33,058 bases of DNA. It comes from Proteobacteria bacterium TMED61. GTDB lineage: Bacteria > Pseudomonadota > Gammaproteobacteria > Arenicellales > UBA868. Of this stretch, positions 1-29,107 are shown piece after piece; positions within the stretch are counted from its first letter, which is position 1, and each line of letters opens with the position of its first letter. The stretch covers positions 16,134-49,191 of the forward strand of contig NHDO01000076.1 of the NCBI GenBank assembly GCA_002171735.1, given 5' to 3'. The notes under the pieces are model-generated. The model was not told the DNA's origin. It saw nothing but the letters and a program-made list of their open reading frames with translations, and did no database searches. A program made the translations under genes and the position numbers.

Positions 1-167
1 CAGACAGTCCCCTTGGCTGCTGAGGTGAAACAGAAATGCAGTGGTCTTAACATCCCAGAAAGGACACCGAGTCGCACAAAAATGTGATCAACCCCACAAG
101 CGCGATTTTCTTCAGCGTACTCAGATGCCAGATCGATCAGACTCCGCGCTATGGAAAGTTCATGCAT
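1..167 (-). CDS. hypA: HypA nickel metallochaperone, N-terminal part (cut by left edge)
   Basis: This gene is not in the ORF track because it runs off the left edge. Translating the minus strand from the ATG at 167 gives a protein beginning MHELSIARSLIDLASEYAEE, continuing through RLGVLSGMLRPLHFCFTSA. This is the conserved HypA/HybF N-terminus: the MHELS start supplies the Ni-binding Met-His, and the xLSG...LxFxF block follows. About 55 residues are visible; the zinc-binding CxxC pairs expected later in the family lie outside the window. HypA delivers nickel together with HypB to a nickel enzyme. It starts 41 bases after the hypB stop, so the two are probably co-transcribed, in the order hypB then hypA. 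The Shine-Dalgarno is weak. The MHELS motif decides the start. No hydrogenase gene is visible, so the client enzyme is unknown. Confidence 0.88.
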   Translation of the reverse strand, partial: MHELSIARSLIDLASEYAEENRACGVDHIFVRLGVLSGMLRPLHFCFTSAAKGTV

Positions 168-208
168 AAGAGATCTGATCAAGAAGAGATTTCGTTAACC
201 CGATTGCA

Positions 209-1144
209 TTAAACATGGTGCGATTGTGGCCGGGTTGATTGGGCCTGGCTTAGAAAATTTTCTGAAAGAGATGCTTGTTCGGCAGATATCCATTCCAACC
301 ACTTACTGATTCCCTCCCCATTCTGCGCAGAAAGCGTAATTACATGAATGTCGGGATTCACTTGACGGCCATACTGGATACACCGATCAAGATCAAAATT
401 AACGTAGGGTAGTAAATCAATTTTGTTAATGAGCATCACGCTCGCGGCGGCGAACATGTCCGGGTACTTGATAGGCTTATCTTCTCCTTCAGTGATCGAT
501 AAGAGCGCTACCTTATGTCGTTCACCTAGATCGAAACTGGCAGGGCATACGAGATTGCCCACATTTTCAATGAACAGCAAACCATTGGATTCCATTTTCA
601 GATCATCCATCGCATGCCCAATCGTATGAGCGTCGAGGTGACACCCTCTACCGGTATTAATCTGAACGGCAACCGCGCCAGTCTTGCGAATTCGATCGGC
701 ATCATTCGAAGTCTGTTGGTCTCCTTCAATAACATAGATTTTCTGGGAGTCACTTAAAGCGGTGATTGTTTTTTCCAATAGTGTCGTTTTCCCGGACCCT
801 GGACTAGAGACGAAGTTGAGACCCAGCACGCTTTTTTGGTGGAGGAAGGTTCGGTTTACTTCAGCATGCTGTGAATTACGGTGGAGAATGTCCTGCTCGA
901 TTTCGATAAGTTTCGGATCGTCATGAGCGAGGGTTTGATGCCGTGTTGCGTGAACATGCTCGCCAAGAAGATGGGTCCCACTATCTGTAACGGACTCTCT
1001 CGGATGGGAGTGGCTTTCTGAATGGGTATGTCCGTGTTCTGACCCATGGTGATGATGCCGATCGGACGAGTCCCCTGTCATTTTGGTAACCGTCGCACCT
1101 TTTACGGATAGGTTTTCGCTGGTGCAACCACATACTCCACACAT
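209..1144 (-). CDS. hypB: HypB nickel-insertion GTPase
   Basis: HypB is a SIMIBI-class GTPase that drives nickel insertion, classically into [NiFe]-hydrogenase and in some bacteria into urease or a ureohydrolase. The ORF-track start at 1231 is probably too early. The conserved high-affinity metal motif MCGVCGC begins at the ATG at 1144 and is preceded by a good GGAGGA site, giving 311 residues. After it comes a His-rich stretch (HHHHGSEHGHTHSESHSH), typical of nickel-storing HypB. The P-loop is SSPGSGKTTLLEKT, followed by EGDQQT, the Ni-binding CHLD segment (GRGCHLDAHTI), ENVGNLVCP and the NKIDLLP guanine-specificity motif, all intact. hypA follows 41 bases downstream. The divergent neighbour is an Lrp-type regulator next to a glutamine-synthetase-like gene. 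That context suggests a nitrogen-related nickel enzyme rather than hydrogenase, but this is inference. Confidence 0.95.
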   Translation of the reverse strand: MCGVCGCTSENLSVKGATVTKMTGDSSDRHHHHGSEHGHTHSESHSHPRESVTDSGTHLLGEHVHATRHQTLAHDDPKLIEIEQDILHRNSQHAEVNRTFLHQKSVLGLNFVSSPGSGKTTLLEKTITALSDSQKIYVIEGDQQTSNDADRIRKTGAVAVQINTGRGCHLDAHTIGHAMDDLKMESNGLLFIENVGNLVCPASFDLGERHKVALLSITEGEDKPIKYPDMFAAASVMLINKIDLLPYVNFDLDRCIQYGRQVNPDIHVITLSAQNGEGISKWLEWISAEQASLSENFLSQAQSTRPQSHHV

Positions 1145-1159
1145 TGGATTCCTCCATCC
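1142..1159 (-). promoter_or_regulatory. hypB ribosome binding site deciding the start
   Basis: On the minus strand GGAGGA lies about six bases before the ATG at 1144, which starts MCGVCGC. The upstream in-frame ATG at 1231 has no comparable site. This, with the conserved N-terminal motif, supports the shorter reading. Confidence 0.7.
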
Positions 1160-1234
1160 CCAGTCCGATTTTTTGATCCATGAATACGGACCTGGGGTTG
1201 CTGATGATAATTTATGAAACTCTAGTTTCATTTT

Positions 1235-1275
1235 CTGAAAACTACAAGTTATATGCTACAGTTCTGCTGAAAACT
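1235..1275. repeat. Direct repeat CTGAAAACT, two copies 32 bp apart
   Basis: CTGAAAACT occurs at 1235-1243 and 1267-1275, and a looser variant (CTGAAAGAAAACT) follows at about 1327. The 32-bp period is close to three helical turns. It sits in the divergent hypB/Lrp-regulator intergenic region, so it may be a phased regulator site. Short A-rich repeats also arise by chance, so confidence is low. Confidence 0.3.
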
Positions 1276-1295
1276 GAGAGTTCATTTCTAATTGT

Positions 1296-1308
1296 TACGA
1301 ATTTCGTA
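1296..1308. promoter_or_regulatory. Palindromic candidate operator between hypB and the Lrp-type gene
   Basis: TACGAATTTCGTA is a perfect inverted repeat with 6-bp arms around a single central T. It is AT-rich and lies about 45 bp before the GTG of the divergent Lrp/AsnC-family gene. Such regulators commonly bind degenerate AT-rich inverted repeats of about 15 bp near their own promoter. Binding by this protein is inferred from position only. Confidence 0.4.
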
Positions 1309-1352
1309 TTAGACGTACGGAAATAGCTGAAAGAAAACTGGGAATCGAAAAA

Positions 1353-1937
1353 GTGACAAGTAGCAACGCAAAGATGATTCCAATCATGGGAAAACGGGCC
1401 CGATCTGGAAAAGCCTTAAGACAAAAAGACGAGGGCGAGGATTCATCGGCGTATGACAGCCACGCCGACTCAGAGTCCCCAATATTTGATGACCTCAATC
1501 GAAAAATTCTTGAATATCTTCAAGAAGATGGAAGAGCGCCGTTTTCAACAATAGCGAGACAGTTGAACACCTCCGAAGGAACCATAAGGAACCGTGTCCA
1601 GAGAATGAAAGAGGCAGGAGCACTGCAAATCGCTGCCATCATTGATCCGATGGCGATACATTACAAAGTTGATGCAATGATTGGCTTGAATGTTGCCACC
1701 GAAAATCTTCCACGTCAGGTGGCCAAGCGGCTTGCTGAGTTAGAACAAATCACATTTATATTTTGGGTTGCGGGCCGGTTCGACCTGCTAGTCGAGGTGG
1801 TTTGCGGTTCCGACGGCGAGTTTCGTCAATTCATTGAGGATGAGCTCTATAGCCAGGCGGACGTTGCAGAATTTGAAGTGATGTCAGGAATTGAGATGTT
1901 TAAAAATCAGTTTATATTACGAGACGCAATAACATAA
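1353..1937 (+). CDS. Lrp/AsnC-family transcriptional regulator
   Basis: This is a 194-residue regulator if the GTG at 1353 is used; ATGs at 1374 and 1386 are alternatives, and no strong Shine-Dalgarno decides between them. From about residue 46 it has the family's N-terminal winged HTH (FDDLNRKILEYLQEDGRAPFSTIARQLNTSEGTIRNRVQRM). An effector-binding RAM/AsnC ligand domain follows (AIIDPMAIHYKVDAMIGLNV... VAGRFDLLVEVVCGSDGEF). The roughly 45 residues before the HTH are charged and low-complexity, longer than the usual 150-residue family member, so they may be an extension or the result of an upstream start choice. Such proteins usually sense amino acids or small nitrogen compounds. It is divergent from hypBA and 42 bases upstream of a glutamine-synthetase-family gene, which is its likely target. 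The effector cannot be read from sequence. Confidence 0.9.
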   Translation: MTSSNAKMIPIMGKRARSGKALRQKDEGEDSSAYDSHADSESPIFDDLNRKILEYLQEDGRAPFSTIARQLNTSEGTIRNRVQRMKEAGALQIAAIIDPMAIHYKVDAMIGLNVATENLPRQVAKRLAELEQITFIFWVAGRFDLLVEVVCGSDGEFRQFIEDELYSQADVAEFEVMSGIEMFKNQFILRDAIT

Positions 1938-1979
1938 TCAGTTAATAGCCAGTTTCTACGAACCCCTAATGGTGATGTC

Positions 1980-3401
1980 ATGAATAAGAATTCTGAAGAA
2001 AAATTTATCCAAGCACTCCCCGATCTGAAACGAGTCAAAGAGGAGAAAAAAAGATTAGAAGCGGCGGGTGTTAAGTATATTTTTTCCTGTTGGATTGATC
2101 TTCTGGGTAGTCCGAAGACTAAGCCTGTGCCGATCAGTGATTTTGAAGCGTTGTGTATGGGTAAAGGGCCACAGTTCGCTGTTCATTCAGTTTCCTTTGT
2201 TCCTGAACTCAGTCCTGCAGATTCTGACCAGATTCCATTACCAGACCTGGATAGCTTGGTTATTTGTCCTTGGGATACCAGCTGTGCTTGGGTCTTTGCA
2301 GACCTTTGGTGGGAAGATAGTCCGTATAACATCTGCCCTAGAAGTCTATTGAAGCGGGTGGTCAAAGAGACTGCAGAGCAAGGTTATTCAGTGCATGCGG
2401 GTATCGAGCCAGAATTTATCGTGATGAAATGGGAAGACGGGCAACCGGTCAAGGCAATCGATGATGACCCACGTAGCGGGGCTGGCATACGGCCCCGTCG
2501 ACAGGCATTTGGCTACGATGTCGAATACTCGATAGATTCGATGGGCTTTCTTGGAGAGATGATCGATATTGTCGAAAATCTTGGATGGGATATGCACGAT
2601 GTTGTTTGTGAAGGGGCGTACTCACAATTTGAACTTGATTTCCATTACACCGATGTCCTTCAGATGGCAGATCGGTTCGTATTTTTACGGGTGATATTGA
2701 AAGAGATTGCCAAACGTCATGGAATGTTTGTGACATTCATGCCCAAGCCGACAACCGGCGACTGGCGCTCGGGAGCCCACCTTAATACGTCAATGCGCCC
2801 GATAAATGAGCCGGACAAAAATCTATTTGAAGGATCGAACGGGTCATGGGCGGATCCAGTGTATGCCGCCGTGGGAGGGCTTCTGCGTCATGGTGGAGCG
2901 CTTACGGCCTTGGCTTGCCCAACGGTCAACTCGTATAACGGACTGGTTCCGCGGGTAGGAGGTTTTGAAGGGGGTACCGTTACCTGGGCGCCAACTCATA
3001 TGACGTATGGCTACAATAATCGTTCCGCCATGTTGCGTTTGCCTCAGACTAGGTTTGCTATCGAGAATCGAGCGGCCGATATGTGCATGAATCCATATCT
3101 GTCACTTGCTATGACGTCGGCTGCGATGACCGAAGGGGTTGTAAACAACTATTCACCAGGCGAGCCTCTCAACTCAGACTTATACAACATGGATGCTGCT
3201 GCGATAAAAGAATCCGGCGCTCAGCGATTGCCACGAAATTTGTTGGAAGCATTGGAAACCTTGCAGACTGATGAACTCGCTTTGAAGGTATTGGGCGAAC
3301 CTCTGCGAAATTCTTTCCTTCAATACAAGTTTGACGAATGGGAAAGGTATCACCAGACAGTGACCGATTGGGAGGTTACCGAGTATCTCCGTCTTTACTG
3401 A
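1980..3401 (+). CDS. Glutamine-synthetase-family ligase (GlnT/gamma-glutamyl-amide type)
   Basis: This 473-residue protein belongs to the glutamine synthetase superfamily, which forms gamma-glutamyl amides from glutamate, ATP and ammonia or an amine. Visible blocks are the N-terminal beta-grasp region (YIFSCWIDLLGSPKTKPVP), the metal-site segment GIEPEFIV, EGAYSQFELD, the ATP-site segment MPKPTTGDWRSGAHLNTSM, and NRSAMLRLP...ENRAADMCMNPYLS. Two places depart from canonical GS: the usual NSYKRL is NSYNGL, and the usual PD-x-xNPY is ADMCMNPY. I therefore favour a specialised ligase acting on a small amine, such as methylamine, over housekeeping GlnA. It follows the Lrp-type gene by 42 bases and precedes the HD-domain gene. 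Codons are AT-rich in the sampled line (22/60 G+C), unlike the next gene. The substrate is not determinable from sequence. Confidence 0.88.
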   Translation: MNKNSEEKFIQALPDLKRVKEEKKRLEAAGVKYIFSCWIDLLGSPKTKPVPISDFEALCMGKGPQFAVHSVSFVPELSPADSDQIPLPDLDSLVICPWDTSCAWVFADLWWEDSPYNICPRSLLKRVVKETAEQGYSVHAGIEPEFIVMKWEDGQPVKAIDDDPRSGAGIRPRRQAFGYDVEYSIDSMGFLGEMIDIVENLGWDMHDVVCEGAYSQFELDFHYTDVLQMADRFVFLRVILKEIAKRHGMFVTFMPKPTTGDWRSGAHLNTSMRPINEPDKNLFEGSNGSWADPVYAAVGGLLRHGGALTALACPTVNSYNGLVPRVGGFEGGTVTWAPTHMTYGYNNRSAMLRLPQTRFAIENRAADMCMNPYLSLAMTSAAMTEGVVNNYSPGEPLNSDLYNMDAAAIKESGAQRLPRNLLEALETLQTDELALKVLGEPLRNSFLQYKFDEWERYHQTVTDWEVTEYLRLY

Positions 3402-3447
3402 GACTTGCGATCCGCCTCTGTTGCCGGAAAACGTCCAGTCGACCGCG

Positions 3448-3465
3448 TTTGGCCTGTACGCCAAA
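3448..3465 (+). promoter_or_regulatory. Stem-loop between the ligase gene and the HD-domain gene
   Basis: TTTGGC-CTGTAC-GCCAAA forms a perfect 6-bp stem with a 6-base loop inside the 120 bases between the ligase stop (3401) and the HD gene start preferred here (3522). It has no T-tract, so it is not a classical terminator. It could be an operator or a processing element. Its presence mildly supports reading 3402-3521 as non-coding. Confidence 0.35.
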
Positions 3466-3521
3466 TACTTGTCAAATTCGGAATCCACTGTAGGCCAATC
3501 CGCGCCCTGAGATCAGAAACG

Positions 3522-4136
3522 ATGAATGGCGAAACCGTTGCATTTGCTCAGATGAAGGACGCCACCCAAGCGGACTACGATCTGCTGTCCAGCAAGTTCC
3601 AGCCCTATCGGGAAGCAACGGTCGAGCGCGTCCTTGAAACGTTACAGCGTCAGGCGACCGAGCGCGAAAGCGGGCACCAGATTCACCGGCTCGACCACGC
3701 GTTGCAGTGTGCTACCCGCGCACGCGCTGATGGCGCCGATCTCGATTGGATTGCGGCTGCGCTACTGCACGACATCGGTGACGGACTTGCGCCGATGAAC
3801 CACGATCGTTTCGCCGCTGAGATATTACGACCATTTCTTCGCGAGGAGGTCACCTGGGTGGTCGCCCATCACGGCGCGTTCCAGTTGACCTACTCGGGCG
3901 AATTCACTGACCGAGATCCAAATACGCGCGAACAGTTCAGTGATAGCCCGTATTATCAGTCCTGCATCGATTTCTGTGAGCGCTGGGATCAGAGTAGCTT
4001 CGACCCGCGCTATGCGAACGATCCGCTGGATAGTTTTCGCGTTGAGATCGACACCATATTCGCCAGGATGCCGTTTGATCCTGGCCATCTACGCGCCGGT
4101 GAAGTTTTAGGACTGCCTAGCGCGGCGGCCCAGTAG
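3522..4136 (+). CDS. HD-domain metalloprotein, PhnZ/TmpB-like oxygenase candidate
   Basis: The ORF track begins at a TTG (3405), but the 39 residues before the ATG at 3522 look non-coding and contain a stem-loop, so I prefer 3522 (204 residues); ATG 3552 is also possible. The fold is an HD domain with apparent ligands in order: LDHALQCA, ALLHDIGD, MNHDRFAAEI, VVAHHGAF and, near the C-terminus, ERWDQSSFD. That spacing matches the short HD proteins of organophosphonate operons. PhnZ and TmpB in that group are mixed-valent diiron oxygenases that cleave 1-hydroxy-aminoethylphosphonates. TmpB acts on the trimethylated form and releases glycine betaine. The residues before the first His (HQIHRLDH) seem to differ from PhnZ as I remember it, so the substrate may differ. 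Sampled G+C (40/60) is far above the upstream gene. A generic phosphohydrolase cannot be excluded. Confidence 0.75.
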   Translation: MNGETVAFAQMKDATQADYDLLSSKFQPYREATVERVLETLQRQATERESGHQIHRLDHALQCATRARADGADLDWIAAALLHDIGDGLAPMNHDRFAAEILRPFLREEVTWVVAHHGAFQLTYSGEFTDRDPNTREQFSDSPYYQSCIDFCERWDQSSFDPRYANDPLDSFRVEIDTIFARMPFDPGHLRAGEVLGLPSAAAQ

Positions 4137-5700: not shown

Positions 5701-6813
5701 TCAGGATAAGGATTTAAGTACCCATCTTTGAAAGTCATGAACCGCATGTTCACTAAAATAACTTCGGGCTTCGTTGGCCACAAAGCGGCCCTGACTGTAA
5801 CCGAGACTATGTAAACCTTTTTGAACTGTCTCGCAAAGTGGTATGTCTTCTTCACGAACCACGTTGATGAAGTCAATTACTTTCTGTTGCTCTTCGTTGA
5901 GTTCGCTAGTTGGAAAGTACCACTCACAGATCTGCATCGTCTTTTCCGGCCCTGCCGGCAGATGGAAGAAGACGTTGAGATACCCCCCGGGGTAAACCTC
6001 AAGAGCCCAGTTAGGCCATAGAAGCCAGCTGCCAAACTCACGCTCTTCACTTTTTTGGTCTTCTGCTTTTTTATACCCGCTGGCCCCACTCACACCACGG
6101 CTGGCATGACTGTGGTATTTCTTATGCACGGTAATCTGATAGGACTCCATATCGAGCGACCCTTGCGCGAGGCTTGGATGCTGATTCGGACAGTGATAGC
6201 ACTCTGAGTAGTTCTCCACCGAGTTTTTCCAATTTGCAGCTAGAGGAATCACGCGCTCGTCGGCGAATTTGAGTTCAGAGACTTTGGGTGACAGGTCGAA
6301 AACTTCTTTCTCAAATTCCTCGAGATCCGTCATCAGAGGTTCGGCGTCCGGATCAAGATTGATAAAGACAAAGCCACAGAATAGTTCTGCCCGGACCGCA
6401 CTCAGGCATATCTCAGATGTTGAAAAATCCTTAACCTCCTCGCTATGCAGGGCCTGCCGTAACTCCCCGGTCAGTTCATAGGTCCATCGATGGTAGGGGC
6501 AGACGATCGCAGAACTTACGCTACCGTTGTCTTCAAGCAAACGATGGGCACGGTGCTGGCAGACGTTGTGGAAAGCCCGAAGGTTGCCGTCCTCGCCTCG
6601 GACAACGACTACGCTCTGGTCACCAATGTCACGCACAAAATAACTGCCCACAGACCCAAGTCGAGAGACATGACAAACATATTGCCATGTCCGGTAAAAG
6701 ATCTTTTCCTGCTCCTGTTTGTAGATCTCTGGATCGAAGTAATACTGCCCCGGAAGCGTATAAGAAGACAGGGGGTTGTCAGTGAATCGCCCTGGGTCAG
6801 GCAGGTGATTCAT
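5701..6813 (-). CDS. Rieske non-heme iron oxygenase alpha subunit, quaternary-amine type
   Basis: This 370-residue oxygenase has an N-terminal Rieske [2Fe-2S] domain: ligands C85/H87 in NVCQHRAH and C105/H108 in VCPYHRW. The catalytic domain contains ENYSECYHCPNQHPS (E200, H207, H212), and the third iron ligand is likely the Asp in REEDIPLCE. The CYHC..HP signature and length place it with oxygenases that hydroxylate or demethylate trimethylammonium compounds (glycine-betaine GbcA, carnitine CntA, stachydrine types) rather than with two-subunit aromatic dioxygenases. It lies 11 bases after the PhyH gene and 49 before the GFA gene, clearly one operon. No ferredoxin-reductase partner (GbcB/CntB-like) is in the window, so electrons must come from elsewhere. 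The exact substrate is not readable; glycine betaine or a carnitine relative is the best guess. Confidence 0.9.
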   Translation of the reverse strand: MNHLPDPGRFTDNPLSSYTLPGQYYFDPEIYKQEQEKIFYRTWQYVCHVSRLGSVGSYFVRDIGDQSVVVVRGEDGNLRAFHNVCQHRAHRLLEDNGSVSSAIVCPYHRWTYELTGELRQALHSEEVKDFSTSEICLSAVRAELFCGFVFINLDPDAEPLMTDLEEFEKEVFDLSPKVSELKFADERVIPLAANWKNSVENYSECYHCPNQHPSLAQGSLDMESYQITVHKKYHSHASRGVSGASGYKKAEDQKSEEREFGSWLLWPNWALEVYPGGYLNVFFHLPAGPEKTMQICEWYFPTSELNEEQQKVIDFINVVREEDIPLCETVQKGLHSLGYSQGRFVANEARSYFSEHAVHDFQRWVLKSLS

Positions 6814-6824
6814 ATCAGGAAGCC

Positions 6825-7664
6825 CTATAGTGCGGAAGTTCTGTAGCCATCTTCCCGCCAGGTGATGGGAAAGTGGTTTTCGTCCATTATATTGTCCCCA
6901 AGGCGTTTATAACGGCTGTAGATCGGCCCTGTGCCTTCATGAAAATGAGCCGGGTTGTATAGCGCATCACTACGCATGCCGTGCATCACCAATGAGCGCC
7001 TGGGATCAGGAGAATGGTTGAATCCGGAACCGTGCCAGGTCCAACCATGGTGAAACGAGCCGCCGCCTTTTGGCACTTCCACGTAAACAATTTCGGGCTC
7101 GATGCCTTCTTGTTCAGCCGCAATCTCCATATAGCGTCGGTAGTGTTCCGGGCCGTGGAACTCTCCTTCAGGCCTGGAGTGACGCCATCGATGAGAACCG
7201 CGGACAAATTCAATGGTACCGCCATCCCGAGTGGTTTCATCCAAGGCAATCCAGCAACTGAGGAGTTCAGAGGGCCTGAACCAACTGAGGAATGAATTAT
7301 CCTGGTGGTATCCAAGCGACCGGGTCTGCGGGGGCTTCCACAGGACGTTATCCGACATCACCCGGGTACCCGGCCACTCCCCAAGCGTGGCGATGGCTTG
7401 GCCGATGTCAGGCCGGGTAACGACTTTGGCGATCGCGATATTCGCCTTCCATCCGTTACAGATCTGCCGGGTCAGTGAAGGGTCTCCCGTACTTTGCTGC
7501 CAGTTGACCTCGTCAGGGCTAACGCCGGTTTCAAACTCACCTTTGAAAAGCCGTTCGAAAGTTTCCCTTAAGATCTCAACGGTGTCTTCATCTATCAGCC
7601 TTTCGACAACGAGGAACCCGTCCCGGTCAAAGTTGGCTTTTTGTTGGGCTGTCAGTTCAAACAT
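6825..7664 (-). CDS. Phytanoyl-CoA-dioxygenase (PhyH) family Fe(II)/2-oxoglutarate oxygenase
   Basis: I prefer the ATG at 7664 (MFELTAQQKANFDRDGFLVV, preceded by GGAAG) over the track's GTG at 7688, giving 279 residues. The jelly-roll dioxygenase motifs are present: H120 and D122 in GYHQDNSFLSW, and the distal His in WTWHGSGFNHSPDPRRSL (about H211), with a nearby Arg for 2-oxoglutarate. The family hydroxylates unactivated carbons; bacterial members include ectoine hydroxylase and the aminoethylphosphonate hydroxylase PhnY. It sits between the homocysteine-methyltransferase-like gene (53 bases upstream) and the Rieske oxygenase gene (11 bases downstream). It probably hydroxylates the same small quaternary amine or a related intermediate. 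PhnY itself pairs with an HD oxygenase, and one is encoded in Region A, but on the other strand and not in this operon. Confidence 0.9.
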   Translation of the reverse strand: MFELTAQQKANFDRDGFLVVERLIDEDTVEILRETFERLFKGEFETGVSPDEVNWQQSTGDPSLTRQICNGWKANIAIAKVVTRPDIGQAIATLGEWPGTRVMSDNVLWKPPQTRSLGYHQDNSFLSWFRPSELLSCWIALDETTRDGGTIEFVRGSHRWRHSRPEGEFHGPEHYRRYMEIAAEQEGIEPEIVYVEVPKGGGSFHHGWTWHGSGFNHSPDPRRSLVMHGMRSDALYNPAHFHEGTGPIYSRYKRLGDNIMDENHFPITWREDGYRTSAL

Positions 7665-7717
7665 TGATTGCTTCCACGAAATCCCCACGAGACGGGATGT
7701 GGATGCGCTACCAGAGT

Positions 7718-8614
7718 TCAGACCACATGACTAAGCTCGCAGATGTGTTCTTTGCGTACACCGCAACAGCCCCCGATCACCTGAACCCCTTGATCCATCC
7801 AGCGTTTTGACGCAGAGGCGTAGTCTGCTGGAGATATCATGTCATCAAATATTGCTTTGGTTTCAGCTCTGTCAAATTGACAGACGTGCGCATATACCCC
7901 GATGGCGCCATTCCAGTGCGTTTTCAGGATCCCAAGACACTCGTCAATACAGTCGACTTCGGTGTGCATGATACTGATCAGGGGTAGGTTCTTGTCTTTA
8001 ACTGCCGCAAGAGCGTCCTCTAAAGGTTCACCACCCAAAAGACACATTTTGCCATCAATGGGTTTTACAGAGACACCGGCCCACACCGGCAACCCGCTCG
8101 CCTCGGCACCATCAACGCAAGCGAGCAAACGGTCTATGTGACTCAACATTTCTAACATGATGAGATCGCATCCACCTTTAGCCATCAGTACAGCCTGATC
8201 TCGGCTGTTTGTTTCCAGTTCGCCCAAAGACGGCTTCTCTTTTGTCCACATCCAGTGGGTAATCCCCCCGGCAACGAGCGCACTGGGATTCCCGGAACCG
8301 TCTCGCGCCTCATTTGCAAGTCGCACGGCCGCATTGGTCAGAGCTTCAAATCGATCTTCTATCCCGGCTGAGCGAAGGCAATGTCGCGAGGAACTGAAGG
8401 TATTGGTGATAATGATTTCTGCTCCGCACTCAATATATTCTTCATGAATGGTCCGGACGATCTCAGGGTGAGAAAGGGCGGCACCGCTATTCCAGGTATT
8501 AACGATCTGCGGAACGCCACGGCGCTCACACTCTGTGCCGGTTGCCCCGTCGATCAGTATGCACTCTCCGGCACGGATCCGGTCCCAAACCGCTTGATAA
8601 CGTTTGGTCGACAT
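7718..8614 (-). CDS. Homocysteine S-methyltransferase-family protein with altered zinc site
   Basis: This is a 298-residue TIM-barrel protein of the homocysteine S-methyltransferase family (MmuM, BHMT, MetH N-domain). Diagnostic parts are LIDGATGTECERRG at the N-terminus, ADEI-type GAEIIITNTFSSSRHCL, LIMLEMLSHI, VWAGVSV and the C-terminal VIGGCCGVRKEHI (C283, C284). These enzymes bind zinc through three cysteines; the first usually sits in an NC-type motif after the sixth strand. Here that segment reads PLISIMHTEVD, so the position is probably His217. A His ligand could still bind zinc, or the protein may use a different acceptor. In a demethylation operon it would accept a methyl group from betaine or a similar donor. 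It starts 41 bases after the integrase-like gene. Start ATG 8614 has AAAGGAA upstream. Confidence 0.85.
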   Translation of the reverse strand: MSTKRYQAVWDRIRAGECILIDGATGTECERRGVPQIVNTWNSGAALSHPEIVRTIHEEYIECGAEIIITNTFSSSRHCLRSAGIEDRFEALTNAAVRLANEARDGSGNPSALVAGGITHWMWTKEKPSLGELETNSRDQAVLMAKGGCDLIMLEMLSHIDRLLACVDGAEASGLPVWAGVSVKPIDGKMCLLGGEPLEDALAAVKDKNLPLISIMHTEVDCIDECLGILKTHWNGAIGVYAHVCQFDRAETKAIFDDMISPADYASASKRWMDQGVQVIGGCCGVRKEHICELSHVV

Positions 8615-8655
8615 CGTTTATGTTGTTCCTTTAGCGTTTACCGTAACTTTTATGG

Positions 8656-9240
8656 TTAGTGTGAATTGCTTAGTGGGGTATCGCCGAGGGTCGTACCCCC
8701 TTCCAGGACAATCTCCTGCAATCGATAGCTCCACTGCTCCAGAAGCACAGTCTGTGCGACAACTTGGTGCTCTAAGGGAACGCGAGCCGACGGAATTGCA
8801 CTGGCCTGGTCAACGACCTGCGCCGCGAGCTCTGCATTACCAAGTTCAGTCATCTGGTTGCGGACATAGTCCCTGATATCCTCAGGCGTTACGGATTCCA
8901 TGTATATAGAAGAGACATGCTGGCTGAGCTGGTCGGTAACGGCATCTGACGTCAACGGTTCACCAGTTGTGTTTAAGAAGACGCCAGTACACTTCGTTGA
9001 TTTGGGTAACCAGGTTATTACCCACTGCGGGATCATTAAATCCCAGGATTCGTGTGCCGCGGCCTTAGACCGATACCAGATGCGGGTTTCTTCATCAATA
9101 TCGGACCAGTCCATCCGAATGACATCTTCCAGAGGTTGACCCGTCGCCAACAAAAATCTATGGACCAATGGCAGGCCCGGCCAGATGGCGAGAATTTCCG
9201 CATCCATGAGATCGCGGACGTTTTCCAGTTTAGTCGTCAC
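8656..9240 (-). CDS. Degenerate tyrosine-recombinase (P4-integrase-like) catalytic-domain protein
   Basis: This 194-residue ORF (GTG start, AGGTG upstream) resembles only the C-terminal catalytic domain of P4-type tyrosine integrases: LVHRFLLATGQPLEDVIRMDWSDIDEETRIW matches their LLLTGxRxxEVxxxxWxxID block. SVTPEDIRDYVRNQMTELGNAELAAQVVD matches the HDLRRT region, and a C-terminal LLEQWSYRLQEIV fits the tail. The catalytic residues are largely missing: the first Arg (TGxR) is Pro, the His of HxLR is Glu, and no catalytic Tyr is seen in the PLEHQVVAQ region; one Arg survives (EDIR). It is an intact reading frame, not obviously frameshifted. It lies 41 bases before the homocysteine-methyltransferase gene on the same strand, so it is probably the first gene of that operon. 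Likely not a working recombinase; it may be a DNA-binding relic or a repurposed protein. No partner elements or att repeats are seen. Confidence 0.65.
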   Translation of the reverse strand: MTTKLENVRDLMDAEILAIWPGLPLVHRFLLATGQPLEDVIRMDWSDIDEETRIWYRSKAAAHESWDLMIPQWVITWLPKSTKCTGVFLNTTGEPLTSDAVTDQLSQHVSSIYMESVTPEDIRDYVRNQMTELGNAELAAQVVDQASAIPSARVPLEHQVVAQTVLLEQWSYRLQEIVLEGGTTLGDTPLSNSH

Positions 9241-9321
9241 CAGGCACCTACTTAAAAGATTTGATCAGTTGTCGGTTACGCCCGGATATTAATCGTGAAG
9301 CGCAGTAAATAGCCATCTTCA

Positions 9322-9336
9322 GGACAGAATTTGTCC
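9322..9336. promoter_or_regulatory. Inverted repeat GGACA-N5-TGTCC, candidate operator
   Basis: GGACAGAATTTGTCC lies in the 242-bp region between the leftward demethylation operon and the rightward carnitine genes. The 5-bp arms are perfect, and the centre-to-centre spacing suits a dimeric regulator. No regulator gene is adjacent, so the cognate protein is unknown. Confidence 0.45.
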
Positions 9337-9342
9337 AAACTC

Positions 9343-9362
9343 GCCTACGTATTTCTGTAGGC
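9343..9362. promoter_or_regulatory. Inverted repeat GCCTAC-N8-GTAGGC, candidate operator
   Basis: This is a second perfect inverted repeat (6-bp arms, 8-base spacer), six bases after the first one in the same divergent control region. Two dyads so close together suggest a regulatory hub for both transcription units, though one could instead form a hairpin in a 5' leader. Confidence 0.45.
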
Positions 9363-9482
9363 CCCAGCTCAGGCGGGAACTTTGCCCCTTTTAGATCGCA
9401 AATCACTAAATATTGTGCGCTTTTCTGTAATTGCGGGGAAGTTATCCGTGACAACATCCTGCATCAGCCCAGGAGGTGTGAA

Positions 9483-10400
9483 ATGCCCTTAGCTATGAAT
9501 CTTAATCCCTTTATTACCTGCGCCGTAACCGGCTCAGGCGGCACACAAGATCGTTCCCCGCATGTACCGCGTTCGCCCGAGCAGATTGCAGCGAGTGCTA
9601 TTGATGCGGCCAAAGCGGGTGCTGCGGTTGTGCACTGCCATGTGCGTGATCCTGAGACCGGCAAGCCCGGCCGGCAGAAAGAGCTCTTTCGCGAGGTGGT
9701 CGATCTTATTCGTGACTCGGACACCGACGTCGTCGTTAACCTGACTGCCGGCATGGGCGGCGATATGGTTTTCGGTGATCCAGAACATCCACTGCCGCTG
9801 AATGATGCTGGTACCGATATGGCGGGTGCGACGGAGCGTGTTGCCCATGTTGCTGAATGCCTGCCGGAAATCTGCACACTCGACTGTGGCACTATGAATT
9901 TTGCCGAGGCCGATTATGTTATGACCAACACGCCTGGTATCTTGAGAGCGATGGGACAGATGATGACTGATCTCGGTGTACGCATCGAGATTGAGGCATT
10001 TGATACTGGACATCTGTGGTTTGCCAAGCAACTCGTTAACGAGGGCATCATTCCGGCACCCGTCATGATTCAGATGTGCATGGGCGTCCCCTGGGGCGCC
10101 CCCGATGACCTGAATACCTTCATGGCGATGATCAACAACGCGCCTGCTGACTGGACAGTTTCTGCATTTTCGATTGGGCGCAATGAAATGCCCTACGCCG
10201 CTGCGGCGGTGCTCGCTGGCGCGAATGTCCGGGTGGGTCTTGAAGACAATTTGTGGCTGAAAAAAGGTGAATTGGCAACCAACGCTCAACTCGTCGAAAA
10301 AGCTGCCACGATTGTGACCAATATGGGCTGCACTCTGATGACCCCGGCAGAGGTGCGCAACAAACTGCAGTTACAAAAGCGCATGCCGGTGGCAGCGTAA
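9483..10400 (+). CDS. cdhC: Beta-keto acid cleavage enzyme (BKACE), dehydrocarnitine cleavage
   Basis: This 305-residue protein is of the BKACE (former DUF849) family, a zinc TIM-barrel that reacts a beta-keto acid with acetyl-CoA to give acetoacetate and a new CoA ester. Zinc ligands appear in VVHCHVRDP (H51, H53), with the catalytic/ligand Glu in RVGLEDNLW. In carnitine catabolism CdhC converts 3-dehydrocarnitine to betainyl-CoA and acetoacetate. The assignment rests on the carnitine-dehydrogenase gene 12 bases downstream, the arrangement known from Pseudomonas. The expected thioesterase CdhB is not in the window. The ATG at 9483 is preceded by a strong AGGAGGTGTG site. Codons are GC-rich in the sampled line (37/60). 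Other BKACE substrates, such as 3-keto-5-aminohexanoate, are less likely in this context. Confidence 0.9.
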   Translation: MPLAMNLNPFITCAVTGSGGTQDRSPHVPRSPEQIAASAIDAAKAGAAVVHCHVRDPETGKPGRQKELFREVVDLIRDSDTDVVVNLTAGMGGDMVFGDPEHPLPLNDAGTDMAGATERVAHVAECLPEICTLDCGTMNFAEADYVMTNTPGILRAMGQMMTDLGVRIEIEAFDTGHLWFAKQLVNEGIIPAPVMIQMCMGVPWGAPDDLNTFMAMINNAPADWTVSAFSIGRNEMPYAAAAVLAGANVRVGLEDNLWLKKGELATNAQLVEKAATIVTNMGCTLMTPAEVRNKLQLQKRMPVAA

Positions 10401-10412
10401 GGGAGCAATGAG

Positions 10413-11408
10413 ATGAACAATATAAAGACGGCCGCCATTATCGGTGGTGGTGTCATTGGTGGTGGTTGGGCTGCACGCCTGATTGAAAACGGAATTGAGG
10501 TGCGTGTTTTTGATCCGGCGGCCGATGCCAAGGCAAAGTTCGACGCCGTACTGGCCAATGCGGATCGCGCTTACGCCAGTCTGACCAATGTACCCCGTGG
10601 GACCAAAGCGGCAGTCTCTTGGCACGCAAGCGCAGCCGACGCCGCTGAGGGTTCGCAGCTGATCATCGAATCGGTACCCGAGCGACCCGACATCAAGCGT
10701 GTGGTTTATGCCGAAATCGAAACTTCTGCTGCTTCTGATGCAATCATCACATCGTCAACCTCTGGCATCATGCCAAGTGAGTTACAGGCCGAGATGGCAC
10801 ACCCGGAACGGCTCATGGTGGCGCACCCGTTTAATCCGGTGTACTTGCTGCCGCTGGTAGAACTTGTGGCCGGCAACCAGACCGATGCCAAGTACATCGA
10901 ATGGGGTAAAACATTTTTTTCCGGCATCGGCATGCATCCGCTGCATTGCCGCGTGGAGATCGAAGGTTTTCTTTCGGATCGGTTGCAGGAAGCTCTGTGG
11001 CGGGAGGCACTCTGGCTGCTTCACGATAAGGTGGCAACGGCAGATGAAATCGATGCGGCGATTGCCTATGGTCCCGGCTTGCGTTGGGCGCAGATGGGCA
11101 CTATGCAAACATTCCATCTCGCCGGTGGGGAAGGGGGTATGCGGGCGATGCTGGCGATGTTCGGACCGTGTCTTAAGTGGCCCTGGACGAAGCTAATGGA
11201 TGTGCCTGAGTTGACCGAGGATTTCGTCAATGAGGTTGGAGACCAATGTGAGCAACAGGCGGCAGGCTTAAGCCCCCGTGAGCTCGAACGTATCCGGGAT
11301 GACAATCTGATCGCGATTCAGCGCGCACTTAAAGGCAACGACTGGGGTGCAGGAAAAACCTTGGCGCACTACGAGGCGAAGATGGCTCAGGCAGCGAACG
11401 ACGACTGA
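10413..11408 (+). CDS. cdhA: L-carnitine 3-dehydrogenase
   Basis: This 331-residue NAD-dependent enzyme of the 3-hydroxyacyl-CoA dehydrogenase superfamily oxidises L-carnitine to 3-dehydrocarnitine. The Rossmann motif is IGGGVIGGGWAARLIENGIEVRVFDP; then IIESVPERPDIK, TSSTSGIMPSELQ, and the catalytic His region VAHPFNPVYLLPLVEL. The C-terminal domain carries YGPGLRWAQMGTMQTFHLAGGEGGMR and FGPCLKWPWTKL, which I recognise as characteristic of carnitine dehydrogenases rather than CoA-ester dehydrogenases. It has no fused thioesterase domain (some CdhA proteins do) and stops at a normal single-domain length. It starts 12 bases after cdhC with GGGAG upstream. A 78-base gap separates it from the TauD-type dioxygenase gene. 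Confidence 0.93.
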   Translation: MNNIKTAAIIGGGVIGGGWAARLIENGIEVRVFDPAADAKAKFDAVLANADRAYASLTNVPRGTKAAVSWHASAADAAEGSQLIIESVPERPDIKRVVYAEIETSAASDAIITSSTSGIMPSELQAEMAHPERLMVAHPFNPVYLLPLVELVAGNQTDAKYIEWGKTFFSGIGMHPLHCRVEIEGFLSDRLQEALWREALWLLHDKVATADEIDAAIAYGPGLRWAQMGTMQTFHLAGGEGGMRAMLAMFGPCLKWPWTKLMDVPELTEDFVNEVGDQCEQQAAGLSPRELERIRDDNLIAIQRALKGNDWGAGKTLAHYEAKMAQAANDD

Positions 11409-11486
11409 ATCGCTAAGTTGCTCCTAGGCCCGTTTCTATTTTAGGAAGATTTCCACGGATTCGGAACAATCCTCTGATTTAGATCT

Positions 11487-12512
11487 GTGAAACAGACATA
11501 CCGCATAAACGAACTTGCCCAAGGCGGTTTTGGTATTCGCGTTGACTTCGCGAGTGGTGATATTGAAGATGTACTTGCTGCTTTTTCTTCCAACGCAGAT
11601 GCGATCCTCAGTCGTTTTTACGCCGCACGCGGGCTGATGCTGATCGAGGGAATGCATAGCGTGTTCGAGCGCCCCCGAGCATTGGTCGAACTGAGTCGAT
11701 TGTTTGGCTCTGAGGTTGAGAACTATCATCAGACTCTGACCAGCCCAAGATTTTTCCACGACTCTGAAGAAGAGATACTGATCCTTTCAAACGAGCCACC
11801 CTGTAATCACCCGCCACCGCCGCGCAGTCACGATGATAGGCTTAATGTGCAATTCCCACACCAGGTGAACTGGCACAGTGATCAAAGTTACCGGCGTCCG
11901 CCCCCCGACATCACGTTGTTGCTAGCCGTGCGGACGCCCCCGCCAGATCAGGGCCAGACTCTGGTTGCAGATTGCACTTCGGCCTGCGCTGCGCTCACTC
12001 CGGAAACCCGGGAACGTCTGCGCCATCTCAACGGACTTCACGCGCCAAGCTGGGTCGGACGTTCTCGGGAAGCGGTGGAAAAGGGCGAGCCCATTCTGGA
12101 TCTATTACCGCATCAGCGACCACAGCGGCATCCACTGTTACGCCAACATCCAGTCAGCGGCGAACAATCGCTGTTCGTCTGTGAGGAAAAACAGATGGAT
12201 TTCGTCGATGGCCCGGTGGTCGAACTGGAGACAGGACCGAATGGAGAAGGCGCCAGACTCATCCGTGAACTACTCGCGCACAGCACTCAAGAGAAATTTG
12301 TTTACAGCCACCAGTGGCAGGTTGGCGATTTACTGATCGCGGATAATCGTAATCTCTTGCATTGCGCTACTTGGTATGACGCAGATTCTTATTCACGCCT
12401 GATGTGGCGCACTACAGTGATGGGTAATCCGGGTCATGAATATGTGGGGGAGAGAAAGTCCTGGACCCCTGGGGACGGCAGTGAAATCATGGCCGGGATG
12501 GATCACGCCTGA
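11487..12512 (+). CDS. TauD/TfdA-family Fe(II)/2-oxoglutarate dioxygenase, gamma-butyrobetaine-hydroxylase-like context
   Basis: This is a 341-residue dioxygenase. The iron facial triad is visible as H130 and D132 in VNWHSDQSYRRPP and a distal His in RNLLHCATWYD (about H292); 2-oxoglutarate-binding Arg residues follow (SRLMWRT). The start is a GTG at 11487 with a poor Shine-Dalgarno; no better start lies downstream before conserved sequence. It follows cdhC-cdhA by 78 bases on the same strand. Gamma-butyrobetaine hydroxylase makes carnitine and belongs to this superfamily, but usually carries an extra N-terminal zinc domain that is missing here. So it could hydroxylate gamma-butyrobetaine, or another trimethylammonium acid or trimethylaminoethylphosphonate (as TmpA does). 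The substrate remains inference. Odd feature: a proline-rich insert (NEPPCNHPPPPRSHDD) just before the iron site. Confidence 0.85.
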   Translation: MKQTYRINELAQGGFGIRVDFASGDIEDVLAAFSSNADAILSRFYAARGLMLIEGMHSVFERPRALVELSRLFGSEVENYHQTLTSPRFFHDSEEEILILSNEPPCNHPPPPRSHDDRLNVQFPHQVNWHSDQSYRRPPPDITLLLAVRTPPPDQGQTLVADCTSACAALTPETRERLRHLNGLHAPSWVGRSREAVEKGEPILDLLPHQRPQRHPLLRQHPVSGEQSLFVCEEKQMDFVDGPVVELETGPNGEGARLIRELLAHSTQEKFVYSHQWQVGDLLIADNRNLLHCATWYDADSYSRLMWRTTVMGNPGHEYVGERKSWTPGDGSEIMAGMDHA

Positions 12513-16615: not shown

Positions 16616-18307
16616 TTACCTACCGAGAATGAAATCTGCGCACCTTTCACCGACCATAATTGCTGGCATGTTGGTATTGGATGACACAAGGTTCGGCAGT
16701 ACTGCCGCATCGGCAACACGCAAACCCAAAATCCCATGAACACCAAGTTCGGCATCGACCACTGATTGACTGTCTTGACCCATTTTGCAGGTCCCGACCG
16801 GATGCCAGCACGTATTACCACATTCTCGAGCATAACTTAGCAAAGACTCAGATCCGGTAACGGATGCACTCGGCCTAACCTCTTTCTTGATCAGCTGTCT
16901 GAATGGCTCTTGCGAGGCTAGCTCCCTGCACATCTCAAGACCCGTGACCACTGCTTTTTGATCTACTTCCGACTGCAGATAGTTGGCATGAATCACAGGG
17001 GTATCGGATGGGTTCTGGGTTCTTATATGAACAGATCCTCGTGATTCAGGATGCAACTGGAATGCGGTCAAACCAAAACCTGAGAACGTGTCTACGCCGA
17101 GTCCATCCGCCATTGCAAACCGATCTTTGCCACTGACATGCGCGATTCCAAGCTTGATATCCGGTGTACTAAGATTTTTTTCAGTCTTGACGTGAGCGAA
17201 GCAGGTGATGGTGGGGGTGGTCATCAGGCCACGGCGCAAAATAAAGTATTCAATTCCCGATCGCATTGCGAACGTTCGTTTCGTAAATAGATCATTTACC
17301 GTAATGGGCTTTGTGCACTCGTAGGTTGTGCGAACGTTAAGATGGTCTTGGAGATTCTGACCCACGCCGGGTAGATCACAGGTTACGGCGATGCCTTTTC
17401 CTTCCAGAATTGAGGCTTCGCCAATCCCCGATCGCTCCAGAATCATTGGGGATGAGATTGCGCCAGCGCTCAAGATCACTTCTCCGCTGACCGCGATGTC
17501 CTGTGAGGCCTCAGGGCTGCCGGCAGAATTGAGAGAGAGATATCTAAGCCCTGTCACCTGATTGTTTTTAATGAGTAACTTATCAACGAGGGCGCTTGTC
17601 ACGACGGTAAGATTTGACCGGTGGCGCACTTTCCTTAGGTAACCAACTTCGGTGCTGCAGCGCTTTGCATTCGTCTGAGACATCTGCGTGTAGTGCGCAC
17701 CTTCATAATCGCCTCCGTTATAGTCACGAGCAATAGGTATGTCTATTTCAGAACAGGCCTCCATAAATGCTTCGGAAAGCGCATCTTTATGCGCGATTTC
17801 CATAACATCAATGGGGCCGTCGGTCCCCCTTGATGTATTGCCGTTGTTTTGATAATTCTCAATGCGCTTAAAGACCGGCAATACATCTTCGTAGCCCCAA
17901 CCGGGGCAACCTGCATCTCGCCAACGATCGTAGTTGTATCTGTCTCCGCGCGTAACCACCATCCCATTGATGTTGCTCGTACCACCGAGAAGGCGCCCCC
18001 TTGGCCAATACATCTTCTTACCCAGCATTCCAGATTCAGCTTCGGTAAAAAAAGGCCAAAGAATTGACTCATCTGCGAGCAGTTTGCCCAGACCGAGCGG
18101 TGTTCTTATCCAATTTTTGGCTGACTTGGAGTCATATCCGAGAGCAAAGGCAATCCCTTGCAGAAGGGATCTTATGGACTCAAAACGTCCGTTGACCTCG
18201 CCACCCGCCTCAAGTAATAACACCTGTAAGTCAGGATTCTCACTGAGTCGAGCAGCCAGGGCGGCGCCGGCTGACCCCGCGCCGACAACTACATAGTCAT
18301 ATCTCAT
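16616..18307 (-). CDS. GMC-family FAD-dependent oxidoreductase (alcohol/choline dehydrogenase type)
   Basis: This GMC oxidoreductase (563 residues) oxidises an alcohol to an aldehyde using FAD. I prefer the ATG at 18307, since MRYDYVVVGAGSAGAALAARLSE opens the FAD-binding fold; the track's TTG at 18340 overlaps the ADH stop. Other GMC signatures: PRGRLLGGTSNINGMVVTRGD, AGAISSPMILERSGIGE, GVGQNLQDHLN, and the C-terminal catalytic His in NTCWHPVGTCKMGQDS with Asn in SSNTNMPAIMVGERCAD. It resembles choline dehydrogenase in outline, but the sequence alone does not fix choline as substrate. It starts 29 bases after the iron-type alcohol dehydrogenase stop. Having both alcohol oxidases adjacent suggests either two successive oxidations or different alcohol substrates. 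Confidence 0.92.
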   Translation of the reverse strand: MRYDYVVVGAGSAGAALAARLSENPDLQVLLLEAGGEVNGRFESIRSLLQGIAFALGYDSKSAKNWIRTPLGLGKLLADESILWPFFTEAESGMLGKKMYWPRGRLLGGTSNINGMVVTRGDRYNYDRWRDAGCPGWGYEDVLPVFKRIENYQNNGNTSRGTDGPIDVMEIAHKDALSEAFMEACSEIDIPIARDYNGGDYEGAHYTQMSQTNAKRCSTEVGYLRKVRHRSNLTVVTSALVDKLLIKNNQVTGLRYLSLNSAGSPEASQDIAVSGEVILSAGAISSPMILERSGIGEASILEGKGIAVTCDLPGVGQNLQDHLNVRTTYECTKPITVNDLFTKRTFAMRSGIEYFILRRGLMTTPTITCFAHVKTEKNLSTPDIKLGIAHVSGKDRFAMADGLGVDTFSGFGLTAFQLHPESRGSVHIRTQNPSDTPVIHANYLQSEVDQKAVVTGLEMCRELASQEPFRQLIKKEVRPSASVTGSESLLSYARECGNTCWHPVGTCKMGQDSQSVVDAELGVHGILGLRVADAAVLPNLVSSNTNMPAIMVGERCADFILGR

Positions 18308-18336
18308 CAAGTTACTTTGGCTCTTGGATTTCAGTG

Positions 18337-19506
18337 TCAACGGGCACTAAGAAACGACTGGCCGAGAATGTCGCGAATCTCACTGACGGTTGACGAGACG
18401 GGGTTGGTCGACCTTGCGGCATCGGTGTAAGCTTTTTGCGCGATCGAGTCGAGCTCCGATTCTGGTACATCGAGATCTGAGAGGCCGCGGGGAATTTCAA
18501 GAGCATCCAGCAGTTCAACGACACTGGAGTACATTGAGTGAAAATCCTCAGAAGGCAACCCCATCGCTTTACATATCAAAGGTACTTTTTCCTCCAGCGC
18601 ATTCTTGTTATACAAAAGAACAGGAGGTAGCAGGACAGCGTTTGTCAGGCCATGGTGAGTATCACAGGCCGCGCCGACCATATGACTCATGGCATGAACC
18701 AGTCCGAGGCCTTTGAGGAACGAGATGCCTGCAAGACAGGATCCGACCAGCATCGCGCCGCGGGCCTCAAGGTCGTCGCCATGGGCCACGGCGCTCTCCA
18801 AAGAACCGCTGATCAGCCTGATGGCTTCAAGTGCTAACCCATCACAGAGAGGGTTCCAGTCTGGGACTGAGAATGCCTCGATCGCGTGGACAAGAGCATC
18901 ACAACCTGTCCACGCCGTCAGATCAGCGGGCAAGTTTACGGTGACCTCGGGGTCGAGGATCGCCAAAAGAGGCTTTTGTGTGGTATGCCAGATACAGCGC
19001 TTAACACCTTGCACAGTATCTGTGAGCATTGCCGTGCTCTCGGTTTCTGCCCCCGTGCCAGCAGTTGTTGGTACACATATGAGTGGCACGAATGATCCTG
19101 GGCTCAGATCTGGAGACTCCGGCTGATCGTAGTCAAAGTCCCATAGATCGGCATCATTTCGACCCACCAGGCTGATTGCTTTTCCGGCATCCATTCCGCT
19201 GCCACCCCCAATTGCAATGACACCGTCATGTCCACCGTTGTTGAACACGGTTTTCCCACGTGCAATGTCTTCGTCGGTTGGGTTGGGGGAAACATCACTG
19301 AATACGGCATTTGGAAGCCCATTGGAATGACAAACACTGCCAACAAGGTCTATAAAAGGTAAATCTCTACTACCCCGGTCGGTGACGATTAATGGATTTG
19401 TAATGTTGAATTGTTTGCAGGCCGCGCCAATCTCGGAAAGCCGGCCCGGGCCGTAGCGAATAGGTATCGGGAATGTCCAATCTGCACCAGTTAGAAAGTT
19501 TGGCAT
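18337..19506 (-). CDS. Iron-type (group III) alcohol dehydrogenase
   Basis: This is a 389-residue NAD(P)-dependent dehydrogenase of the iron-activated ADH family. The nucleotide site GGGSGMDAGKAISL and the VPTTAGTGAETESTAML motif are intact. Metal ligands are visible in ILDPEV, TGCDALVHAIEAF, KGLGLVHAMSHMVGA and CDTHHGLTNAVLLPPVL. Family members oxidise small primary alcohols or reduce aldehydes. It lies 65 bases after the alkylsulfatase stop and upstream of the GMC gene in the same direction. Sulfatase action frees an alcohol, so this enzyme is a natural next step; that link is inferred from gene order. Start ATG is at 19506. Confidence 0.93.
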   Translation of the reverse strand: MPNFLTGADWTFPIPIRYGPGRLSEIGAACKQFNITNPLIVTDRGSRDLPFIDLVGSVCHSNGLPNAVFSDVSPNPTDEDIARGKTVFNNGGHDGVIAIGGGSGMDAGKAISLVGRNDADLWDFDYDQPESPDLSPGSFVPLICVPTTAGTGAETESTAMLTDTVQGVKRCIWHTTQKPLLAILDPEVTVNLPADLTAWTGCDALVHAIEAFSVPDWNPLCDGLALEAIRLISGSLESAVAHGDDLEARGAMLVGSCLAGISFLKGLGLVHAMSHMVGAACDTHHGLTNAVLLPPVLLYNKNALEEKVPLICKAMGLPSEDFHSMYSSVVELLDALEIPRGLSDLDVPESELDSIAQKAYTDAARSTNPVSSTVSEIRDILGQSFLSAR

Positions 19507-19571
19507 TGATCTTCTCGATTTAGATGAGGGGATAGAGTCCCTGTGCGGGCTCAGCCCAATTCGTTGTTCGG

Positions 19572-21479: not shown

Positions 21480-21596
21480 ATGTCGTTATTCTCTTTACGA
21501 AGTCGGCTGTCTGGGAGGATTTTTGCAAGTGATGTTTTGATCAACGTTATTGTGAAGCCCGACGTTGTCGTTGGAAGGCTTAGTAGAAAATTACGC

Positions 21597-22466: not shown

Positions 22467-22468
22467 GG

Positions 22469-23266: not shown

Positions 23267-23356
23267 GGTTGAGTTTCCTTATTGATTTTTGTATGAAATC
23301 TTGCCGAGGGGTGTTTGATTGGCGTTGCTGGATCGTTTGAATTTGGGTTCAGAAAA

Positions 23357-25096: not shown

Positions 25097-25275
25097 CGTT
25101 AGAGGTGCGAGTGCACATTTAATCGGCCTATAGTCCTTGTATTTTCAAGCCTAAATTGGTTGTCCACATCAACCTGCAGGCGATGATCGCTATAACTTCG
25201 CCGTGATATCCATAGGGACCAGGGTGTCTGTCTACAATCAGCTTTGGCAGGGTGCTTGAAGGAGATCATTCTCAC

Positions 25276-27881: not shown

Positions 27882-27945
27882 TACGAACTTGTGAGTGGTT
27901 GTGACTATGGAAGCCCAGACTTCTCTAATTAGGGGCCATAGAAAC

Positions 27946-27973
27946 CTGTCCCCGGGGTTTCCCCCGAGGACAG
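27946..27973 (-). promoter_or_regulatory. Strong hairpin with GAAA tetraloop between proX and proV
   Basis: Read as minus-strand RNA, the arms CTGTCCTCGGGG and CCCCGGGGACAG enclose a GAAA (GNRA) loop, giving 12 continuous pairs including one G-U wobble. On the plus strand the same position would be a C-A mismatch, so the structure is best formed by the proX-proV transcript. No U-run follows, so it is more likely an RNA-stability or attenuation element than a full terminator. It would favour higher levels of binding protein than of ATPase/permease. Confidence 0.75.
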
Positions 27974-27995
27974 CGTCAAAGATTACATCGTGAGT

Positions 27996-28970: not shown

Positions 28971-29107
28971 TTCACACCTCCGTAAATAAATAAATGTATT
29001 CAAAGACTATCCTGCCTGAGTTGTTTTAATTTTTGACTGGATAACCTTTCTGATCCGCTATGTCTTTGTCGTATTTCTTGGTGCCGAAGAGACCTCCATT
29101 AAGTTAC

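Follow-up and report, generated by a model that had tools for sequence, protein, structure and literature searches.

A hypB-hypA pair precedes a predicted nickel-dependent two-subunit ureohydrolase of the DmgH/MefH kind in Proteobacteria bacterium TMED61

Introduction

Which enzyme is served by a hypB-hypA pair with no hydrogenase beside it? The question is raised by a 33,058-nucleotide stretch of DNA (the window) from Proteobacteria bacterium TMED61 (assembly GCA_002171735.1, contig NHDO01000076.1), which opens inside hypA, continues into hypB and contains no hydrogenase genes among its open reading frames (ORFs). For this locus, an original prediction made from the window alone had hypothesised that HypA and HypB mature a nickel-dependent hydrolase of the guanidine type. 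Here, the sequence to the left of the window was analysed, in which two tandem arginase-family genes follow hypA on the same strand. We consider it likely that HypA and HypB load nickel into the heteromer encoded by these two genes, an enzyme of the same kind as DmgH and the metformin hydrolase MefH. Its predicted role is to hydrolyse an N-substituted guanidine, for which N,N-dimethylguanidine is the likeliest candidate.

An arginase-family pair lies downstream of hypBA

The window covers bases 16134-49191 of a 49191-base contig, so its left flank could be read. The source assembly is 2.6 Mb, 84% complete, with 6.65% contamination. Positions outside the window are given on L003, the first 20 kb of the same contig (window coordinate = L003 coordinate - 16133). 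The genes of the putative operon are as follows.

hypB: open frame 209-1231, likely gene 209..1144, minus strand; Ni-binding GTPase (TIGR00073, PDB HypB 2hf8, motifs)
hypA: 1..167, minus strand, only the start being in the window, complete at L003:15929-16300; Ni metallochaperone (PF01155, MHE start, two CxxC motifs)
alpha subunit: L003:14764-15825 (outside the window), same strand as hypA and downstream of it; arginase family, 353 amino acids (Pfam and structure matches)
beta subunit: L003:13699-14721 (outside the window), same strand as hypA, after alpha; arginase family, 340 amino acids (Pfam and structure matches)

HypB matched NCBIfam TIGR00073 with 294 bits (cut-off 121) and PDB HypB 2hf8 with 188 bits, and carries the motifs CGVCGC and GRGCHL and a His-rich N-terminal part. 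Its true start is more likely at 1144 than at 1231, because the MCxxCGC motif that opens HypB homologues (here MCGVCGC) begins only at residue 30 of the 209-1231 frame. HypA, which had been read by hand as running off the left edge of the window, was confirmed by Pfam PF01155 (93.7 bits), with a score just under the cut-off for TIGR00100 (87.9 against 88.1 bits).

On a single strand, the gene order is hypB-hypA-alpha-beta, with hypAB directly upstream of the tandem pair. Extending the contig leftward had been proposed as a check, and it revealed the two arginase-family genes beside hypA. The absence of hydrogenase genes extends beyond the window ORFs, as neither PF00374 ([NiFe]-hydrogenase large subunit) nor HypD was matched anywhere in the 84% complete assembly, while control genomes behaved as expected.

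Bit scores were 583 for the alpha subunit against subunit A of metformin hydrolase and 482 for the beta subunit against its subunit B; GdmH, the next-best kind for both, reached 160 and 140 bits, respectively. Alpha shares 67% identity with the alphas of both DmgH and MefH, and beta 60% and 59% with the corresponding betas; within the source genome, alpha and beta share 40% identity. A tree of 72 arginase-family proteins set apart 36 alpha and 31 beta sequences, each group by a single branch (support 100/97 and 100/98), and placed the GdmH-like single enzymes outside both. Judged by these comparisons, alpha and beta are orthologues of the subunits of the Ni-dependent, heterohexameric DmgH and MefH (MetCaCb), and this kind, not GdmH, is the closest. 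The original prediction was therefore right in expecting a nickel ureohydrolase instead of a hydrogenase, but its model, the single-gene GdmH of Synechocystis, was not the nearest relative.

DmgH and MefH are reported to need nickel and to show activity only when alpha and beta are combined in a heteromer, and for MefH this heteromer was shown to have an alpha2beta4 structure (PMC11399263, PMC11271267). By analogy, nickel would be the metal of the source-genome enzyme and alpha2beta4 its probable assembly. Recombinant activation was dependent on HypA/HypB in the work of Sinn et al. (PMC11399263), while Li et al. found that MetAB was not essential in vitro given added nickel (PMC11271267). DmgH of Aminobacter niigataensis DSM 7050 (PMC11399263) shares with the source genome the hypB-hypA-alpha-beta order, the six alpha ligands and a degraded beta. 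The surroundings differ, as the Aminobacter and Pseudomonas pairs adjoin a permease and a HupE gene, whereas the source-genome pair has a GS-family ligase, an Lrp regulator and a NitT/TauT-like transporter nearby.

Active site and pocket classes

Aligned in AnMefH numbering, alpha keeps all six metal ligands (H158, D183, H185, D187, D276 and D278). In beta, D183, D276 and D278 are replaced by G, N and N, while H158 and H185 are kept; position 187 is ambiguous (N bases) in the source genome and is D in the same-genus genome G018. These losses are within the range of three to five ligands that marks a beta subunit of the DmgH/MefH kind. The source-genome beta is thus somewhat less degraded than the Pseudomonas MefH beta, which has R158/Q185. 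The enzyme also shares with MefH/MetCaCb of Pseudomonas and Aminobacter (PDB 8ryi, 8snf, 8x3g; PMC11399263, PMC11271267) the pocket residues N199, W192 and E320 in alpha and the cap residue F82 in beta, but the cap residue Y22 is F.

Pocket classes were read at alpha positions 80, 184 and 288-290. The source-genome alpha, with C184 and T288-T289-A290, belongs to class QCTTA, which together with NCTTA was found at 12 loci. The other classes were QSSTS in Aminobacter, including the characterised DmgH; QASTS at one locus (L020); QCNSA in metformin hydrolase; and TCTSC at 14 complete loci, which form a single clade (support 100/100). A NitT/TauT-like ABC transporter adjoins nine of the 12 QCTTA-type loci and a Pot-type ABC transporter adjoins all 14 TCTSC loci, with no overlap. 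The link between pocket and transporter may reflect a single event, since the TCTSC set is one clade.

Relatives and conserved neighbourhood

A scan with one genome per species identified 33 alpha/beta loci. Of 36 loci examined for their neighbours (a single locus being represented twice), 33 had HypA and/or HypB next to the pair. The unit is also common to G018 and to an independent gammaproteobacterial metagenome-assembled genome (L013). Given this recurrence, the gene order is not due to chance. Among 399 sampled Pseudomonadota genomes, alpha was found in the source genome only. In the source family it was present in 3 of 33 genomes, of which the source genome and its same-genus relative G018, which carries the whole cluster and whose lineage is probably marine, have the source pocket class and the third (G015) belongs to the other clade.

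An NCTTA pair and a TCTSC pair share one 39 kb contig (JABJGO010000013.1, loci L022 and L031) with a single ureohydrolase of the GdmH-like type, which has Thr at the position of the guanidinase Trp (PGTGTPEPGG).

Ligase, transporter and monooxygenase genes around the operon

The divergence of hypBA from an Lrp-type regulator and a GS-family ligase, described in the original prediction, was verified, and a transporter and a monooxygenase module were found on the other side of the operon.

Lrp/AsnC-type regulator: 1353..1937, plus strand, divergent from hypB (PF13404, PF01037)
GS-family amide ligase, probable glutamate:amine ligase: 1980..3401, plus strand (PF00120, 278 bits)
NitT/TauT-like ABC transporter: L003:2620-5453, left of the window
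Toluene-monooxygenase-like module: L003:6480-13427, left of the window

The best PDB match of the ligase was a glutamate--methylamine ligase (9qur, 232 bits), a nearly full-length but distant relative. Against TIGR03105 (type III glutamate--ammonia ligase equivalog), it scored 363 bits, under the cut-off of 470. Ligase orthologues (59-96%) are located near alpha/beta in G018 (L010) and at L015, L018, L022 and L033. At L015 and L033, the order is permease, binding protein, ligase, ATPase, hypB, (hypA), alpha, beta and urease genes; at L018 the ligase is upstream of the transporter and at L022 beside it. An Lrp gene adjoins the ligase at L010, L018 and L022 as well. As its orthologues are in or beside the operon in four further lineages, the ligase, tied to the hydrolase by these shared loci, probably handles the amine product. 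The GS-family proteins of L020 and L029 were dropped as orthologues, being only 38-39% identical.

Directly after the ligase, at 3405-4136 of the window, is an HD-domain protein with weak similarity to phosphonate-degrading HD oxygenases (PhnZ/TmpB type).

The monooxygenase module is a complete operon of hydroxylase subunits, TmoB, Rieske ferredoxin, MmoB/DmpM effector and reductase; after it come genes for a triple RidA-domain protein and a PuuE/deacetylase-family hydrolase. The module also occurs in G018 and L013, and it is convergent with the hydrolase operon in three genomes. It was rejected as an obligate partner of the hydrolase, as G028 carries it without the pair, together with a NitT/TauT-like transporter and an M20-family gene.

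Further genes for guanidino compounds and amines were observed in the source genome. On contig C50 (L085:3207-8545), a second guanidino-compound island consists of two arginase-family genes flanking a DDAH/arginine-deiminase-family gene and a triple RidA protein; from methylated arginine, enzymes of the DDAH type liberate dimethylamine. Nine arginase-family genes (L069-L076 and C59:6759) are present in the assembly, which is many for a small genome. Within the window, positions 5701-12512 and 16616-29003 hold apparent quaternary-amine catabolism genes: a glycine-betaine-monooxygenase-like Rieske protein, a homocysteine methyltransferase, BKACE and carnitine-dehydrogenase-like genes, a choline-dehydrogenase-like protein and, judged by its ORFs, a betaine-type ABC transporter.

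Discussion

In the mechanism that we propose, HypA and HypB would insert nickel into the heteromeric ureohydrolase, in which alpha would house the di-nickel site, while beta, a predicted pseudoenzyme, would assemble with alpha and cap its pocket. From an N-substituted guanidine, with N,N-dimethylguanidine as the likeliest one, the enzyme would release urea and an amine by hydrolysis. The urea could pass to the urease of the genome, and the GS-family ligase, controlled by the divergent Lrp regulator, would probably couple the amine to glutamate or a related acid. Uptake of the substrate is probably the task of the NitT/TauT-like ABC transporter.

Several observations weigh against this reading. 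The pocket, C184/TTA, matches neither the DmgH set (S184, STS) nor the MefH set (C184, NSA), therefore the substrate may differ. A search at the Rfam gathering thresholds, which covered the window, L003 and five relatives, gave no guanidine riboswitch. The ligase has Asn-Gly (NSYNG) where its nearest solved relatives, including 9qur, show Lys-Arg in the NSYKRL motif, which makes its acid substrate unsure. As a secondary amine, dimethylamine would be an uncommon substrate for a ligase of the GS type, and an HODM-type dimethylamine monooxygenase (PF11927), a candidate amine sink, is absent from the assembly. An exclusive partnership of the ligase with the hydrolase was rejected, because orthologues of 71-79% identity occur in the source family without alpha/beta; several of them adjoin genes for an alpha/beta-fold hydrolase and for a Rieske oxygenase, and the ligase may accordingly have a broader role in amine metabolism.

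The strongest alternative, possible although clearly less likely, is that the same Ni heteromer naturally acts on another N-substituted guanidine, here perhaps one produced by the monooxygenase/RidA/deacetylase module. The separate pocket class would be consistent with this, as would the convergent module in three genomes. In four genomes a QCTTA-type pair coexists with a TCTSC pair, which has the Pot-type transporter, and this coexistence suggests different substrates. However, most QCTTA loci lack the module and the module occurs in G028 without the hydrolase, while the pocket-transporter link may, as noted, be a single event in one clade. A QCTTA enzyme is also as close to DmgH as a tested dimethylguanidine hydrolase: the alpha of L017 (Hyphomicrobiales), which has the source-genome pocket residues, and a Hyphomicrobium enzyme (SMAG_U6089) reported to hydrolyse dimethylguanidine (PMC11399263, PMC11271267) are each 70% identical to DmgH alpha, a likeness in overall identity. 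Methylguanidine is reported not to be a substrate of MefH or DmgH.

A wider reading of the locus can be put forward as speculation and is rather doubtful as a whole. The C184/TTA class would be a natural form of the family, working in a full pathway by which a naturally occurring methylated guanidine is taken up and assimilated: the heteromer would yield urea and dimethylamine, urease would use the urea, the GS ligase would trap the amine as a gamma-glutamyl-type amide, and, in this lineage, the toluene-monooxygenase-type module would make or prepare the substrate. According to the DmgH authors, it is unknown where N,N-dimethylguanidine comes from in nature (PMC11399263).

It is improbable that HypA and HypB serve urease, as in Helicobacter, and are beside the ureohydrolases by accident. 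The source genome does have urease, therefore urea is usable, but the genes are on another contig (C66) with their own UreG-like gene. The adjacency of HypA/HypB to alpha/beta in nearly all loci argues against such an accident, and a knockout of the equivalent metAB was unable to grow on metformin (PMC11271267).

An enzyme acting on free guanidine, as GdmH does, is highly unlikely. GdmH of Synechocystis, with GhaA/GhaB (Funck 2022, as cited in PMC12186494), belongs to the same arginase superfamily and uses nickel and HypA/HypB-type helpers, and the guanidinase of Nitrospira inopinata (PMC11410670) shares the superfamily and nickel. These are, however, homohexamers from one gene, with a Thr/Trp specificity pair and riboswitch control. 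The source-genome enzyme is distant from them in sequence, has a degraded second subunit, shows no Thr/Trp pair in the alignment of alpha, and its surroundings gave no riboswitch.

The chance that the enzyme is a metformin hydrolase is similarly slim. C184 and A290 of MefH alpha are shared, but N288 and S289 are replaced by T and T, and the 67% identity found here compares with 93% between the DmgH and MefH alphas. An assayed 62%-identical pair was inactive on metformin and a 71% pair was about 20,000-fold less active (PMC11271267).

Finally, a remnant or incomplete hydrogenase maturation set has a negligible probability, as it draws on the family names HypA and HypB and on HypB being in the same family as E. 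coli HypB (TIGR00073), against the lack of a [NiFe] large subunit and HypD in the 84% complete assembly and the tandem ureohydrolases in the operon. The HypB tree proposed as a check does not distinguish between the clients: in a tree with a weak backbone and without GhaB, ureohydrolase-linked and hydrogenase-linked sequences interleave with no separate supported groups.

The kind of enzyme is already known, as paired arginases adjoining HypAB-like genes were noted in a set of 56 pairs (PMC11271267). The available parts of the DmgH and MefH papers describe neither the link to the ligase, nor the pairing of pocket class with transporter, nor the neighbouring monooxygenase. With operons that link this type of enzyme to a transporter, urease and a GS-family ligase, the question of its natural substrate becomes directly testable. 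More generally, an orphan hypAB pair should be a reason to look for nickel ureohydrolases and not for hydrogenases alone.

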